A stretch of 64,000 nt of DNA from NCBI GenBank assembly GCA_009726095.1, contig WLMZ01000003.1:1-64000 (forward strand), in the 5' to 3' direction. Source of the stretch: Actinomycetota bacterium. GTDB taxonomy: Bacteria; Actinomycetota; Acidimicrobiia; Acidimicrobiales; Ilumatobacteraceae. Position 1 is the stretch's first letter. Each line of letters begins with the position of its first letter. Positions 10,417-16,935 of the stretch are shown piece after piece. The notes under the pieces were generated by a model that saw nothing but the letters and a program-made list of their open reading frames with translations, did no database searches and was not told the DNA's origin. The position numbers were made by a program, and so were the translations under genes.

Positions 10417-11292
10417 ATGCACCGCAGAGATCTGGCCGCCTACGGCACGCTTGCGATCGTCTGGGGGCTGTCGTTCATCGTGGTGCTCAAGGCATCACGT
10501 GCGTTCGGGTGGGCGGGATCTGCCTCGTTTCGTGCCCTGGTTGCCGGCTCAGCGATGCTGGTCGTGGCGGGGGTCACGCGCCGGCGACTCGACTTCAGCG
10601 GCGGCTGGAGACCATTCGCCGTCGTCGGGGCCACCACGGTGGCCGGCCAGCAGATTGGGCTGTCGTTCGCGGCTCCCCGCATCGGCACGGCCATGGTGGC
10701 GATCTTCGTGTCGACCATCCCGTTGTTCTCGATGGTGATCGCCCAGTTGTGGGGGCTCGAGCGCATGACACCTCGGGGACGTGTGGGCCTGTTCCTGGGC
10801 GTCTGCGGGACCGCGTTGTTGGTGGGTTTTCCGAGCGTGCCGGTCACCGGCGCGTTTCTGCTCGGCTGCTGCTGTTCGCTCGGTGGTTCGCTGGCCGCAG
10901 CCTTCGGGAGCAACTATGCGGTGCGGCACCTGAGTGGTGTTGGTGCATGGGAGCTGACAGCTGGTTCGTTCTTGTTCGGCGGCCTCTTGATCCTGCCGGT
11001 GCTGTTGTTCGTGCCGGTACCGACCTCGCCGCGGCCGGTCGATTACCTGTACGTCGTGTTGCTGGGCGTGGTGATGAGCGCCATGGCGTACGTGTTGTAC
11101 TTCCAACTCGTTGGCTCGATCGGTGCCACGAAGGCGATCAGCGTCGAGTTCGCGGTGACGGCGATCGCGGTGCTGGCAGGGCCGGTGCTGCTGCACGAAC
11201 ACCTGACGATCGTGCAACTCGTCGGCGGCGCGGTGATTGTCGGTGGATGTTCGCTGGTGCTCGGATTCGGTGCAGCGCGAACGAACAGTTAG
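10417..11292 (+). CDS. EamA/DMT-superfamily transporter
   Basis: Integral membrane protein of 291 residues with about ten predicted helices arranged as two EamA repeats, for example 'YGTLAIVWGLSFIVVLKASR' at the N-terminus and 'YVVLLGVVMSAMAYVLYF' in the second repeat. Members export amino acids, nucleosides or other metabolites; no substrate can be assigned here. The last two bases before its stop are shared with the convergent Lnt-like gene (four-base overlap). Confidence 0.88.
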   Translation: MHRRDLAAYGTLAIVWGLSFIVVLKASRAFGWAGSASFRALVAGSAMLVVAGVTRRRLDFSGGWRPFAVVGATTVAGQQIGLSFAAPRIGTAMVAIFVSTIPLFSMVIAQLWGLERMTPRGRVGLFLGVCGTALLVGFPSVPVTGAFLLGCCCSLGGSLAAAFGSNYAVRHLSGVGAWELTAGSFLFGGLLILPVLLFVPVPTSPRPVDYLYVVLLGVVMSAMAYVLYFQLVGSIGATKAISVEFAVTAIAVLAGPVLLHEHLTIVQLVGGAVIVGGCSLVLGFGAARTNS

Positions 11293-12818
11293 GCAGCAGC
11301 GCGTCGGCGGCGTGGAGGGCGCCAACCTGATTGCACCAGCGCGATTGCGAACACGAGCGCAACGAGGCCAACCCATGGCAGGTCGCCGAGCCGTACGTAC
11401 CAGGTGCGCCCGGTGCGTAGCGCGACGTCGTGGATGATGACCTTCTGTTCGCTGACGCTGGTGCGGTCGATGACGTCGCCATCGGGTGAGACGAAGGCGG
11501 AGAAGCCGGTGGGCGCCACCTGCACCAACCATCGTCCGGTCTCGATCGCGCGCAGGCGCGATGACGCCACCTGCTGGGTCTGCAGCACTGTCCACGTGTA
11601 GCTGGAACCATTGGTGGGGTTGATGATCACCTGGCCGCCGTGGTCCACGCCGTCGCGTGCGCGGCCAGCAAAGAACACCTCCCACGAGATGACCACGCCC
11701 ACCCTGGTGCCATCGGGCAGCGACAACAACGCCGGGCCTGTTCCGGCGACGGCGTTGCGCGGCACGAGGTCAGTGGGCGCGCCCACTGCCTCCAACAGGC
11801 CGCGCATGGGCATGTACTCGCCGAACGGAACCCGGCGGACCTTCTCGTACCGGCTGATGACCTCGCCAGTGGGAGACACCACCACCTGCGCGTTGGTGAA
11901 GCGGTTGTCCTGTGTCTCCTCGGTGATGCCAACGGCCAAGGGTGCGTTCAGGCGCTTCGCCTCGGCGGCGACCTCGTCGAGTTCGGGGCTGCCAGCGAAC
12001 TCGTAGACGTCGATCACGTTCTCGGGCCACACCACGAGATCCACCTTGTCCGACGGCTGGATGATCTGCATGGCAGCAAGGTGCCGGCCGAGCACCTCGC
12101 TGGAGTCGGTGTAGATGGCGTGGGTGCCCTGTGGGCCGCCCCCCTGTACAGCGGCAATGCGCAGTGTCCGGCCGGTGTCGATGCCCCCAGGCGCAACGCC
12201 GGCGATGACGATGATCGCAATCACGCCAAGAAGGGCGAACATGCCGTGTGGAGTGCCCGACGCGTTCGGCCGACGGCGCTTGGCGAACTGCGGGATCGCC
12301 GGGGATGGGCCGGCCAGGGCGAAGCCGATCTGGAACGTGAGCCAGGTGAGCAACAATGGCCCACCGATGCGGACGACGCCGACCAGTGGCCCGCTGCTCT
12401 GGCTGATTGCCAGGCTGGCCAGCGGTACGCCGCCGAACGGGAAGCAAAAGCGCAGCGCCTCGACCAGGGTGTGCGCGGCGGGCCGGCCAAGGACGCGCCA
12501 ATGGCCAGTGGGTGACGCCATGGCGGCCACACCGTGCAGGGCTGCGAACATCGCTGCGCCAAGGAGATAGCCGGGTGCGGTGAGGAACCACATCCACACC
12601 AGCCCGGGGAAGAACCAGCCGGCGCCGAACATCCAGCCGCAACGGAACCGCACTGCCCGCGCCGGGGCCTCGCCCAGTGCCGTCTCGAACACGATGATGC
12701 CGAGCAATGCCAGCGGCCAGAGTCCCCATGGTGGCAGCGACAAGGCGACGAGCATCCCGCCGACGAGCGAGAGGATGGCCTTCTTGGTGGGCCGGCGCGG
12801 CCGATGAATCCTTGGCAT
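11289..12818 (-). CDS. lnt: Apolipoprotein N-acyltransferase-like protein lacking the nucleophile Cys
   Basis: Lnt adds a third acyl chain to lipoproteins at the membrane. This 509-residue protein has the expected layout: six or so N-terminal transmembrane helices, then a carbon-nitrogen hydrolase domain and a last helix near residue 485. Glu266 ('VVWPENV'), Lys326 ('RYEKVRR') and Glu334 ('PFGEYMP') match the catalytic and essential residues. The nucleophile position reads Ser378 in 'GVVISWEVFF' (codon TCG), where active enzymes have Cys-(Tyr/Phe/Trp)-Glu. It may therefore be inactive, altered or regulatory. A TAACGT box lies nine bases upstream of its ATG. The next minus-strand gene encodes a sortase that is itself a predicted lipoprotein. 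Confidence 0.85.
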   Translation of the reverse strand: MPRIHRPRRPTKKAILSLVGGMLVALSLPPWGLWPLALLGIIVFETALGEAPARAVRFRCGWMFGAGWFFPGLVWMWFLTAPGYLLGAAMFAALHGVAAMASPTGHWRVLGRPAAHTLVEALRFCFPFGGVPLASLAISQSSGPLVGVVRIGGPLLLTWLTFQIGFALAGPSPAIPQFAKRRRPNASGTPHGMFALLGVIAIIVIAGVAPGGIDTGRTLRIAAVQGGGPQGTHAIYTDSSEVLGRHLAAMQIIQPSDKVDLVVWPENVIDVYEFAGSPELDEVAAEAKRLNAPLAVGITEETQDNRFTNAQVVVSPTGEVISRYEKVRRVPFGEYMPMRGLLEAVGAPTDLVPRNAVAGTGPALLSLPDGTRVGVVISWEVFFAGRARDGVDHGGQVIINPTNGSSYTWTVLQTQQVASSRLRAIETGRWLVQVAPTGFSAFVSPDGDVIDRTSVSEQKVIIHDVALRTGRTWYVRLGDLPWVGLVALVFAIALVQSGWRPPRRRRAAA

Positions 12819-12867: not shown

Positions 12868-13566
12868 TCAGCCGCCGGACAGCTCGAGGTGCACGACGAT
12901 GCGCTGTCTCGTGGATCCTGGAGGATTGCAGGCGAACAGCGTTGCGGTCTTGGCGGAGGTCTGGTTGATGATGTCGACACGTGACGGCAACACGATCTCG
13001 GTGGACACCACGCTGTAGGCGAACCGCCCGTAGGGCATCGTGAAGATCACCTGGTCGCCGGGCGACAGTGCATCGAGATGGCGGAACGGCTTGGAATGGC
13101 TGGTGCGATGGCCCGCCACCACGACGTTGCCGACCTCGCCGGGCATTGCCGTGCCGGGCCAGTGTCCTGGGCCCTGGTTGAGAGTGCTCAGGCGGATGCC
13201 CTCGAGCATGGTCGTGTTGATCCCGATCGCCGGGATCTCGATGGTGCCGAGTTCCTGGTAGGTCTCGCTGGCCCCGGTGTCCCGGGGTGCGCTGATGGGC
13301 TTGGGCAGCTCGGTGGGGGCCACCGGGATCGTCGTGGTCGAGGTCTCGGGCGCCAGCGTGGTGGGCGCCAAGGTGGCGGGCGGTTCCTTCTTGACGGCCA
13401 CGGTGGTGGTGGGCGCATCGGTGGTCGCGGGTGCTGTCCTGGTGAGGTTGGTGTCGTTGCCGCACGCGACGACGAGCGGGGCAACGACGAGCAGGGCGCA
13501 CAGGGAACGCAGGGAACGCAGGGAACGCAGGGAACGCAGGGAACTCAGGGAACGCAGGGAACTCAC
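12868..13566 (-). CDS. Class E-type sortase with lipoprotein signal peptide
   Basis: Sortase transpeptidase of 232 residues acting outside the membrane. The catalytic triad is visible as His153 ('VVVAGHRTSHS'), Cys213 ('TLFACNPPGS') and Arg222 ('STRQRIVV'). The GTG start at 13566, six bases after the cgoX stop, is followed by (S/R)SL repeats and lipobox 'VVAC' at Cys35, so the enzyme should be tethered by lipid rather than by the usual N-terminal helix. A Thr/Pro/Ala linker (residues 36-95) separates it from the catalytic barrel. No LPxTG or LAxTG substrate is seen nearby. It may be co-transcribed with the haem genes upstream. Confidence 0.85.
   Translation of the reverse strand: MSSLRSLSSLRSLRSLRSLRSLCALLVVAPLVVACGNDTNLTRTAPATTDAPTTTVAVKKEPPATLAPTTLAPETSTTTIPVAPTELPKPISAPRDTGASETYQELGTIEIPAIGINTTMLEGIRLSTLNQGPGHWPGTAMPGEVGNVVVAGHRTSHSKPFRHLDALSPGDQVIFTMPYGRFAYSVVSTEIVLPSRVDIINQTSAKTATLFACNPPGSTRQRIVVHLELSGG
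13501..13563. repeat. Seven 9-bp tandem repeats encoding (S/R)SL in a signal peptide
   Basis: Seven direct copies of CAGGGAACG (two copies end in T, CAGGGAACT) follow each other without spacer; a degenerate unit precedes them at 13492-13500. Read on the minus strand they encode SSL or RSL and form the positively charged n-region and early hydrophobic core of the sortase signal peptide. Copy-number change by slippage would stay in frame. Confidence 0.95.
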
Positions 13567-13571
13567 AGGTG

Positions 13572-14957
13572 TCAGTTTCTCACGTTCGCGACGAATTTGG
13601 CCACCAGCTGCGCCGCGGAGTTCGCCTGCTGCACACAGGCGGGGATCCCCATGCCGTGGTAGCTGGCACCAGTGACGAAGATGCCGGCGGCATCGCGTGC
13701 CAGCGCCGATTCGATGGCGGCCACGCGCACGGCGTGCCCGGGTCGGTATTGCGGGAAGGCCATCGGCCAGCGGCCGAGACGGATCTCGGTGGGTTGGAGC
13801 TCGAAACCGACATGGCGGCTGACCTCGTCGAGGGCGGCCCGGGTGAGGGCATCGTCGCTCTGGTCGGTGACATCGCGGCCGTCGCGGCCCAGCGAGATGC
13901 GCAGGATCACACCGTTGTCGGGCGCGACCGGTTGCCAATGCGCCCACTTGCTACTGGCGAAGGATGCAGCGGTCACCCACTTCTGAACGGGCTTGGGCAC
14001 CAGATACCCGCTGCGCTGTCGGAACTCGGCGGGCCAGCTGTCGCCGGGCAGCGCGACGGTGACCATGACGACCCCGGCGTGATCGAACTTGGCCAGCACG
14101 TTGGCAGCGTCGGCGCTGAGGGCATTGAGCAGCGGCGCCGTTGTGCGCGCTGGCGTGGCCAGCACAACGGCGTCGGCGACCTCACCATCGACCAACCAAC
14201 CCGTGGCGGAGCGCTCGATCGACTGGACGGGTTGGCCGGTGCGCAGGGTGACACCCGAGGTGCGCAGCGATGATGCCAAGGCGTCGGTGAGCGTGGCCAT
14301 GCCGGTGCGCGGCGCAGCGAAGATGGGGCCCGACGGCGGCGGCGCCTTGCGACGGGCAGCGCGAGCGCCCAACAGCAGGCTGCGGTTGTTGTTGGCGAGA
14401 TCGAAAATCTGCGGCACGCCGGTGAGCGCAAAGCGATCGGTGTCGGCGGCGTAGATGCTGCCGACCAAGGGATCGACAAGACGCTCGTGCACCTGCTTGC
14501 CGAAGCGCTTGCGGATCAGGCGCCCCACGGAATCGGCGCCGACGCCGGTGCCCGGCAGGATCGGCTCGAGTGCGGCGCGCAGCTTGCCACCCCAGGTGAG
14601 CAGATCGGTGCGGGCCAGCTTGGCGAGATCGGTGGGTACGCCCAGCATCAGGCCCTCGGGGATGCTGTGCATGCCGTTCCACCACACGTAGGCGGCGCCG
14701 ATGGCGGGCGAGGTGAGCTGTGCGGTCAGCCCGAGCTCGGCGATGAGGTTCATCGCGCTGGGTACCCGGGTGAGGAACGCATCGGCGCCCTCGTCGAGAC
14801 CCTCGACACCGGCGAATGTGGACGACTTGATCTTGCCGCCCAGGCGGTCATCGCCCTCGATCAGGGTGATCGTCGCATCGGGCAGGGCCTGTTGTAACCG
14901 GTACGCGGTGGTCAGGCCCGAGATGCCGCCGCCGACCACGACCAGGCGGGCGCCCAT
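13572..14957 (-). CDS. cgoX: Coproporphyrinogen III oxidase (protoporphyrinogen oxidase/HemY family)
   Basis: FAD-dependent oxidase of 461 residues. The N-terminal dinucleotide motif is 'RLVVVGGGISGLTTAYRL', followed by 'EGDDRLGGKI', and the C-terminal FAD block is 'GIFVTGASYHGMGIP'. In Actinobacteria this family acts in the coproporphyrin-dependent pathway, oxidising coproporphyrinogen III to coproporphyrin III before metal insertion. The ATG at 14957 overlaps the ferrochelatase stop (ATGA). Without HemQ in the window, the pathway assignment rests on taxon and gene order. Confidence 0.9.
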   Translation of the reverse strand: MGARLVVVGGGISGLTTAYRLQQALPDATITLIEGDDRLGGKIKSSTFAGVEGLDEGADAFLTRVPSAMNLIAELGLTAQLTSPAIGAAYVWWNGMHSIPEGLMLGVPTDLAKLARTDLLTWGGKLRAALEPILPGTGVGADSVGRLIRKRFGKQVHERLVDPLVGSIYAADTDRFALTGVPQIFDLANNNRSLLLGARAARRKAPPPSGPIFAAPRTGMATLTDALASSLRTSGVTLRTGQPVQSIERSATGWLVDGEVADAVVLATPARTTAPLLNALSADAANVLAKFDHAGVVMVTVALPGDSWPAEFRQRSGYLVPKPVQKWVTAASFASSKWAHWQPVAPDNGVILRISLGRDGRDVTDQSDDALTRAALDEVSRHVGFELQPTEIRLGRWPMAFPQYRPGHAVRVAAIESALARDAAGIFVTGASYHGMGIPACVQQANSAAQLVAKFVANVRN

Positions 14958-15895
14958 CAGCTGGCCTGCGTTGCGATGACCCGTGCGGCCAGCGAGTGCA
15001 TGACCGCGGCATCGTCGTTGACGCATGCGGTGCGATCGAAGGCGAGCCCGTGGCTTGCAGCGCGGGCGCGTGCTTCGATGTCGAGGTCGTAGAGCACCTC
15101 GAGGTGATCGGCCACGAACCCGCATGCCGACACCACCACGCCGGCGGCGTTCTCGCTCTGGCCGAGTTCGTCGATGACCTCCAAGATGTCGGGACCGATC
15201 CACGGCTCGGGAGTGCGCCCCGCCGACTGCCACGCAATGGCCCATTGGCTCCAGTGGTTCAGGCCCACCTTTGCCGCCACTGCTTCGGCGGTGGAGCGGA
15301 GCTCGTCGGGGTAGGGGTCGCCGGCATCGATGATGCGCTGCGGCAACGAGTGGGCGGTGAACAGCACCTTGGTGTTGGCGGGCATGGCATCCAGCCGCGT
15401 GCGCAGGTCGGAGGCGATGAAATCGATGAACGCCGGCTCGGTTGCCCAGCTGTTGATGGCAGCGGTGGTGATGCCGTGACGTTCGGCGGCAACCCGGGCA
15501 CGGTCCTGGTACTGGCCGATGGAGAAGCTGCTGTAGTGCGGAGCGAGGACCAGCCCCACGATGTGGCGCACACCCTGCGCCGCAAGGTCGTCGACGGCCG
15601 TCTCGATCATCGGTGCGGCGTGCTTCAGGCCGAGCGCGACCATGTACTGACCGGGGGCCAGGTGATCGAGCGCGCGCTGCAGGGCATCGCGCTGGGCCTC
15701 GGTGCGCTGGGCCAGCGGTGAGATGCCACCGATCGCCTCGTAGCGGTTGATGAGGTCCTGGAGTTGTTCGTCGGTGGGCGGCCGACCGCGGCGGATGTCG
15801 GTGTAGTACGGCAGCACTTCGTCGCGCGTGCGCGGGGTTCCGTAAGCCATCAACAGCACTGCCGTCGTGGGAACTGCTGAATGCGGGGTGGTCAT
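14957..15895 (-). CDS. cpfC: Coproporphyrin (ferro)chelatase
   Basis: Ferrochelatase-family protein of 312 residues that inserts ferrous iron into coproporphyrin III (or protoporphyrin). The start 'AVLLMAYGTPRTRDEV' and the motif 'VLFTAHSLPQRII', which carries the conserved active-site His, are typical; a Cys-containing C-terminal segment 'VVVSACGFVADHLEVLYD' holds the conserved Glu region. ATG 15895 is used because it makes an ATGA overlap with the hemE stop; the track ORF adds 52 unsupported residues. Middle gene of the haem operon. Confidence 0.92.
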   Translation of the reverse strand: MTTPHSAVPTTAVLLMAYGTPRTRDEVLPYYTDIRRGRPPTDEQLQDLINRYEAIGGISPLAQRTEAQRDALQRALDHLAPGQYMVALGLKHAAPMIETAVDDLAAQGVRHIVGLVLAPHYSSFSIGQYQDRARVAAERHGITTAAINSWATEPAFIDFIASDLRTRLDAMPANTKVLFTAHSLPQRIIDAGDPYPDELRSTAEAVAAKVGLNHWSQWAIAWQSAGRTPEPWIGPDILEVIDELGQSENAAGVVVSACGFVADHLEVLYDLDIEARARAASHGLAFDRTACVNDDAAVMHSLAARVIATQAS

Positions 15896-16935
15896 GGTCG
15901 TTGTGTCCGTTCGTGCACGTAGGCGACCACTTGTTCGAGCACGCCGGGATCGGTGTTGGGTTGTACCCCGTGGCCGAGGTTGAAGATGTGGCCGGGATGC
16001 CCGGCATTGTCGGCGAGCACGTCGTCGCAACCCTCCTTCGCCACGGGCCACCCGGCCAGCACCAGGGCGGGATCGAGGTTGCCCTGCACCACGGTGTCGG
16101 GGCCGAGTCGACGCCGGGCATCAGCGATGCGGGTGCGCCAATCGAGGCCCATCACCGTGGCGCCAGCGGCGTACATCGACTCGAGGATGTGATCGCAGCC
16201 GATACCGAAGTGGATGCCCGGGGCGTGCGGGTGGCTGGACGCAAGCTCGCTGAAGACCTTGGCCGAGTGCGGCATGGCAAAGCGTTCGTAGTGCGCGCGA
16301 CTGAGCGCGCCGGCCCACGAATCGAACAGTTGGAACGCTGCACCGCCGGCATCGAGCTGGCTGCGGATGGACGCGATCGCATGATCGGCGAGACGGTCCA
16401 TCAGGGCGTGCCACGTGACCTCGTCGGTGTGCATGAGCGCCTTGGTGTGCTCGTAGGTGCGGCTGGGCCTGCCCTCGATGAGGTAGCTCGCCACGGTGAA
16501 CGGCGCACCGGCGAAGGCCAGCAGCGGCACGGTGAGCTCGCGGGCCAGGATGCGGCACGTCTCGATGACGTAGGGCGTGTCGAGGTCGGGCTCGAACGGG
16601 CGCACGCGGGCGAGATCGGCCGCACTGCGGAACGGGACCGTGGCCACTGGTCCGGTGCCCGGAGCGACGTCGACGCCAAACCCGATGGCATGGGCGGGAA
16701 CCACGATGTCGCTGTACAGCACGGCGGCATCCACGCCGTAGCGCAGCACGGGTTGCAGGGTGATCTGCGCCGCCACGGCGGGGTCCTTGATGGCGTGCAG
16801 GATGCTGCCCTCGCCGCGAACCGCTTTGTATTCGGGCAGGCTCCGACCGGCCTGACGCATGAACCACACCGGGGTGTGTGCGCTGTGTTGGCCACGTGCA
16901 GCGGCGAGGAACGTGCTGTTCGAGGGGCCGGTCAT
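15892..16935 (-). CDS. hemE: Uroporphyrinogen decarboxylase
   Basis: Converts uroporphyrinogen III to coproporphyrinogen III in the cytosol. The 347-residue length and the N-terminal substrate motif 'PVWFMRQAGRSLPEY' are diagnostic, as is 'FAGAPFTVASYLIEG'. ATG 16935 is preceded by an in-frame GTG at 16938, and TAACGT ends six bases before that GTG, so a leaderless GTG start is also possible. First gene of the hemE-cpfC-cgoX operon, with four-base overlaps throughout; divergent from the GntR regulator. Confidence 0.95.
   Translation of the reverse strand: MTGPSNSTFLAAARGQHSAHTPVWFMRQAGRSLPEYKAVRGEGSILHAIKDPAVAAQITLQPVLRYGVDAAVLYSDIVVPAHAIGFGVDVAPGTGPVATVPFRSAADLARVRPFEPDLDTPYVIETCRILARELTVPLLAFAGAPFTVASYLIEGRPSRTYEHTKALMHTDEVTWHALMDRLADHAIASIRSQLDAGGAAFQLFDSWAGALSRAHYERFAMPHSAKVFSELASSHPHAPGIHFGIGCDHILESMYAAGATVMGLDWRTRIADARRRLGPDTVVQGNLDPALVLAGWPVAKEGCDDVLADNAGHPGHIFNLGHGVQPNTDPGVLEQVVAYVHERTQRP

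Follow-up and report, generated by a model that had tools for sequence, protein, structure and literature searches.

The catalytic cysteine of apolipoprotein N-acyltransferase (Lnt) is regarded as indispensable, and the engineered serine mutant of the enzyme serves as an inactive control. An lnt-like gene on the reverse strand (11289..12818) of the DNA analyzed here, a 64,000-nucleotide stretch of an Ilumatobacteraceae genome that we call the window, encodes a homologue of 509 amino acids, counted from its ATG, in which a serine occupies the place of that cysteine. The locus raises the question of whether an Lnt can work with serine as its nucleophile, or whether the protein has a different task, catalytic or not. 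All features described below lie on the same strand as the gene.

The Lnt-like protein and its catalytic residues

Two domains of the window protein exceed their Pfam cut-offs: the membrane domain LNT_N (PF20154, 62.7 bits), spanning residues 21-164 (12327..12758), and the nitrilase-like domain CN_hydrolase (PF00795, 100.7 bits), spanning residues 220-473 (11400..12161). The gene is free of internal stops and frameshifts, and residues 64-448 of its product scored 199.9 bits against the equivalog model TIGR00546, for which the cut-off is 132.9. An AlphaFold2 model, computed with 58 Ser-type sequences as input, was predicted with a pLDDT of 91.1 and a pTM of 0.92. The top 24 PDB matches of this model were all Lnt (TM 0.76-0.81), and the fold matches included the E. 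coli C387S structures 5VRH and 8B0M. The protein thus has the full-length two-domain architecture and, in the predicted model, the fold (TM about 0.8) of the E. coli and P. aeruginosa enzymes (TIGR00546; PDB 5N6H, 5N6M).

In an alignment to P. aeruginosa Lnt 5N6M, Ser378 (codon TCG, 11685..11687), located in the segment VGVVISWEVFF, faces the catalytic cysteine and corresponds to the E. coli nucleophile Cys387; from residue 326 on, E. coli numbers equal those of the window protein plus nine (K335, E343, C387, D413 and H425). The general base Glu267 of E. coli is represented by Glu266 (12021..12023), the oxyanion stabilizer Lys335 by Lys326 (11841..11843), and the further Glu343 by Glu334 (11817..11819); Glu380 is likewise intact. 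The preliminary description of this DNA had already reported a TCG-encoded serine at the nucleophile position next to an intact Glu266, Lys326 and Glu334, and both the alignment and the sequence agree with that reading. In addition to the Glu-Lys pair and the further Glu residues, the window protein shares the PFGEY motif and the nucleophile-elbow context with the E. coli and P. aeruginosa enzymes, but it differs from them in having Ser for Cys, Gly for Asp at the 413 position and Gln for His425. A displaced cysteine was considered as a stand-in nucleophile and rejected. The protein contains only two cysteines, Cys60 and Cys125, and because neither lies in the nitrilase domain, no displaced cysteine could replace Ser378; across the clade no cysteine is conserved, and the nitrilase domain is Cys-free in 127/139 proteins.

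Constraint, copy number and gene neighborhood

Our searches covered 201 genomes of the family, 118 of the order, 247 of the phylum and 198 of the class, and the nucleophile position was read in the representatives fetched from them. Serine was found in 58/58 family loci (the window's own locus being counted twice), and the order loci comprised 83 with Ser, three with Cys and two that end before the nucleophile site. Class members outside the order gave 3 Ser and 2 Cys in a first set and 40 Ser and 31 Cys in a second, in which a few loci were read again, and the phylum loci gave 12 Ser and 58 Cys. In named public genomes of Ilumatobacteraceae, Acidimicrobiaceae and Acidimicrobiales, serine was present in 80/80 loci, a count that is biased because that serine was itself part of one of the two search patterns by which the loci had been retrieved. 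Several records (L261, L263, L269 and L309-L312) bear MAG titles naming Bifidobacterium breve, Ferrithrix or Acidobacteria; their Lnt and its neighbors look like those of this acidimicrobial family, and the records are probably mislabeled.

The window's clade covers the order Acidimicrobiales, the nearest named relatives being Ilumatobacteraceae. Ser378, Glu266, Lys326, Glu334 and Glu380 were each present in 141/141 readable orthologues of this clade, and these five residues are among the 38 of 455 alignment columns conserved at 98% or more. A pseudo-enzyme would be marked by weaker constraint on its other catalytic residues; no such weakening was observed, and Ser378 is in no case replaced by Ala, Thr or Gly. 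Its codon is TCN in most members and AGC or AGT in nine members of the order. Because TCN and AGY are more than one base change apart, the serine itself appears to be what is kept; one intermediate route between the two codon families passes through Cys.

The preliminary description had proposed looking for a second, Cys-type Lnt in the genome. This check found only the one Lnt in the source genome, a draft of 191 contigs that is 87.8% complete. The listed genomes of the same genus each gave one Lnt match, as did the complete, single-contig relatives G012, G019 and G038. Across the 118 order genomes, Lgt was found in 116, LspA in 117, a match to the Ser-Lnt query in 103 and LNT_N in 99, and a Cys-type second Lnt, about 25-30% identical, was read in three (G218, G266 and G300). 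These three proteins (L119, L152 and L123, respectively) come from one family of the order, resemble second actinobacterial paralogues and occur beside the Ser-Lnt. Apart from that family, a hidden second Cys Lnt was found neither in the source genome nor in its relatives, and the idea was dropped. One further candidate, L223 (G252:C695), combines LNT_N with a nitrilase-like domain and has a Cys together with the unusual motifs VWSEGG and YGKDHPG; we regard it as an aberrant Lnt-like protein and did not count it as a second Cys Lnt. The contamination of G252 is 6%. Another genome carries two Ser-type Lnt genes in tandem (L362, G558:C7:17550-20640).

Where members of the order retain the Ser-Lnt, the gene is intact. 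The order families f21 and f31 are mostly without Lnt: no Lnt match was found in G220, G267, G301, G230, G275 and G308, and the sampled members keep Lgt. Lipoprotein N-acylation has likely been lost completely in some lineages of the order, and the presence of Lgt without Lnt in these families suggests that N-acylation may be dispensable and the gene losable within the order.

The Ser-Lnt gene shares its direction with genes for a sortase, a protoporphyrinogen oxidase-like flavoprotein and ferrochelatase, both in the window and in the majority of relatives. The adjoining sortase gene (12868..13571, start approximate; PF04203, 100.8 bits) had been described beforehand as encoding a predicted lipoprotein, and this holds: its product has a lipobox-like leader (LVVAC), it lies beside the Ser-Lnt in 60/99 loci, and a simple pattern detects lipobox-like leaders in 44 of these 60 sortase neighbors. 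Within the leader (window positions 13490-13560), the short repeat SLRSLRSLRSLRSL directly precedes the hydrophobic segment and lipobox. The flavoprotein gene (13572..14996; PF01593) is conserved in 78/99 loci and the ferrochelatase gene hemH (14957..16051; PF00762) in 61/99. The association with a lipoprotein sortase is conserved, and the sortase is a possible substrate of the Ser-Lnt, although co-location alone proves neither a functional link nor a substrate.

Repeated origins and the change at position 404

When the trait column was masked, a tree of 171 rows recovered the window's clade, which covers the sampled order, as a single group of 98 Ser sequences (SH-aLRT 100). Four changes between Ser and Cys were needed, at least three of them on starred branches; with more class members added, the number rose to five, at least four of them on starred branches. 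A single Ser clade was rejected by the AU test (log-likelihood 428 lower, p-AU 1.3e-83). Beyond the window's clade, four further Ser sets were found in Actinomycetota. S1 comprises the window's order and one other phylum genome, S2 the phylum family f65, S3 other families of the class, S4 three phylum genomes and S5 two genomes in which a Cys Lnt is present as well. The tree unites S3 with S4, which reduces the five sets to about four origins. Actinobacterial Cys Lnts that may be of the BCG_2070c kind cluster with the Ser clade of the order (SH-aLRT 99). Unlike the window's clade, Cys Lnts of the BCG_2070c / MSMEG_3860 kind keep both Cys and an Asn at position 404.

Position 404 emerged from a scan of 420 alignment columns in which the residues making up 90% of the Cys forms were compared with each Ser set. 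Besides 378, it was the only column abandoned by all five Ser sets (by 97% of S1 and 100% of S2-S5), and the next-best column, a variable one, reached 67%. The window protein has Gly404 (11607..11609) at the position of E. coli Asp413. Asn or Asp occupies this column in 80/84 Cys rows of the tree (about 94%), and Gly, Ala, Thr, Glu, Gln, Lys or Val in 79/81 Ser rows. The exceptions are, among the Cys forms, Thr in L172 and L206, both second paralogues of large-genome actinobacteria, Phe in L177 and Glu in L367, and, among the Ser forms, Asp in about 3% of S1. L367 (G567:C28) is a Cys-type Lnt nested within the Ser set S3, likely a return from Ser to Cys in which the Ser-type pocket was retained.

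In the E. coli enzyme, residues D413-F416 line the active-site cavity (PMC5500890). All phylogenetically independent pairs for position 404 change in the same direction, and there are about four of them, too few for significance. With so few pairs, and with the column having been picked from a scan, the link between 404 and serine is a strong pattern and not a proven dependency; from this pattern we infer that the change at 404 may compensate for the serine. Two other sites proved less consistent. A co-change at position 407 (Phe to Tyr or Trp) was promising in the first set and weakened once class members were added, because Cys forms of the class also carry Tyr. His425 of E. coli Lnt has been proposed to assist Cys387 (PMC5500888), and its equivalent is kept in 6/81 Ser rows versus 63/84 Cys rows; its loss is frequent and not universal, and was set aside as a marker of Ser forms.

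Function of the serine form

The name Ser-type Lnt variant suits the window protein best, since it lacks the nucleophilic cysteine that belongs to the definition of Lnt and has the other Lnt features that could be tested. We favor, with a probability of roughly 0.55, the reading that it is an active serine-nucleophile Lnt of its lineage with a re-tuned pocket. This inferred activity draws on homology together with the predicted fold, the intact catalytic residues, the kept serine, the single copy, the presence of Lgt and LspA, and the repeated origin of serine accompanied by the change at 404. A serine that is fixed across an order and has arisen repeatedly elsewhere looks like the working serine version of an enzyme, not a broken one. 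Ser378 would act as the nucleophile in a ping-pong acyl transfer of the Lnt type, with the lipoprotein N-terminus as the presumed acceptor, and the pocket would be re-tuned for serine, most visibly through replacement of Asn or Asp at the Asp413 position.

The first step of such a reaction is documented for serine, since E. coli C387S forms an oxygen-ester acyl-enzyme, without transfer to apolipoprotein (PMC6828757); a later structural study describes the serine mutant of E. coli Lnt as having 'low activity' (PMC10313180). The nucleophile chemistry of C387S (5VRH, 8B0M) is that of Ser378, but C387S is a point mutant in a pocket that evolved around cysteine and that keeps Asp413 and His425. A natural parallel is offered by BCG_2279c / Rv2262c-Rv2261c of slow-growing mycobacteria, an Lnt-like protein in which, as in the window, the residue corresponding to Cys387 is a serine. 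The preliminary description had mentioned a mycobacterial homologue with such a change and no N-acyltransferase activity. The protein is real; what was demonstrated is narrower than an absence of activity, namely that BCG_2279c fails to replace BCG_2070c for four lipoproteins, and its authors favored a contributive role and left another activity possible (PMC3850990). BCG_2279c, however, accompanies a working Cys Lnt as its paralogue, whereas the window form is the sole copy, no Cys Lnt having been found in its 87.8% complete genome.

That paper was the only one on a natural Ser Lnt found in our literature search, which covered few subscription journals and turned up no work on a Ser Lnt that is the sole copy; nor did the literature searched yield anything usable on a serine N-acyltransferase precedent (PLA2G4E). 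In a tree built without BCG_2279c itself, the S5 members L180 and L204 form a clade separate and far from that of the window, next to Cys paralogues, and their genomes also carry the Cys Lnts L179 and L203. The neighbors of S5 (L180) encode an MBL-fold hydrolase and a short-chain dehydrogenase, which we take to surround Rv2261c-Rv2262c as well, so that, judged by these gene neighbors, S5 probably represents the BCG_2279c group.

Several observations argue against an active Lnt: C387S does not pass its acyl group to apolipoprotein, BCG_2279c, the one natural Ser form studied, does not replace BCG_2070c, most Ser forms have lost the His425 equivalent (6/81 keep it), f21 and f31 keep Lgt without Lnt, so that N-acylation may be dispensable, and the association at 404 rests on about four independent pairs. 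The main rival accordingly accepts an active serine enzyme and alters its second step: as a phospholipase A1 or O-acyltransferase, the protein would hand the acyl group of the oxygen ester to water or to a hydroxyl. Self-acylation of E. coli C387S from phospholipid without N-acylation is consistent with such chemistry, as are the invariance of every residue required for the first step, a change at 404 within the cavity that could reflect another acceptor, and the missing lipoprotein reaction of BCG_2279c. We nevertheless consider a different acceptor or a lipase less likely, given that almost every genome of the order has no Lnt other than this protein, which occurs there beside Lgt and LspA, that its score clearly exceeds the equivalog cut-off for Lnt, and that its neighborhood names no other acceptor and keeps the lipoprotein sortase.

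A non-catalytic or accessory protein that binds apolipoproteins or phospholipids, comparable to the roles suggested for Streptomyces Lnt2 and for BCG_2279c as a helper, is less likely still, because the catalytic set shows no drift. A pseudo-enzyme would be expected to lose Lys326 or Glu266 in places, which occurred in 0/141 orthologues; Ser378 shows no drift either, and members of the window's order usually lack a Cys Lnt that such a protein could help. Such a role would agree with the lack of transferase activity in C387S, with the verdict that BCG_2279c is at most contributive, and with Ser forms that do lie beside a Cys paralogue (G384, G449 and G530). Among the options named in the preliminary description (a pseudo-enzyme, use of serine or another acyl-transfer role), use of serine is favored because the catalytic serine, Glu and Lys and the two further Glu residues are invariant through a deep clade whose members almost always have this protein as their sole Lnt, and the pseudo-enzyme is unlikely. 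Finally, despite the draft state of the genome, an error of sequencing or assembly is effectively excluded, as is a loss of function confined to this genome, by an undisrupted reading frame and by the same serine, in the same frame, in 141/141 orthologues and all 80 named-genome loci.

Most sampled members of the order have no Lnt other than one in which serine is fixed, and several further lineages of actinobacteria have fixed serine too. More tentatively, Ser Lnts could be repeatedly evolved, fully working N-acyltransferases, perhaps the first serine enzymes to be found in nature within the Glu-Lys-Cys nitrilase superfamily, in which the change at the Asp413 position would render an oxygen ester competent for transfer to an amine. 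The same pocket site has changed in each Ser lineage, which makes testable how an oxygen ester could do the work of a thioester. The bacteria that carry these proteins, of which many come from lakes and groundwater, may or may not make triacylated lipoproteins, and thiol-directed inhibitors of Lnt would be expected to miss their Ser-type enzymes.
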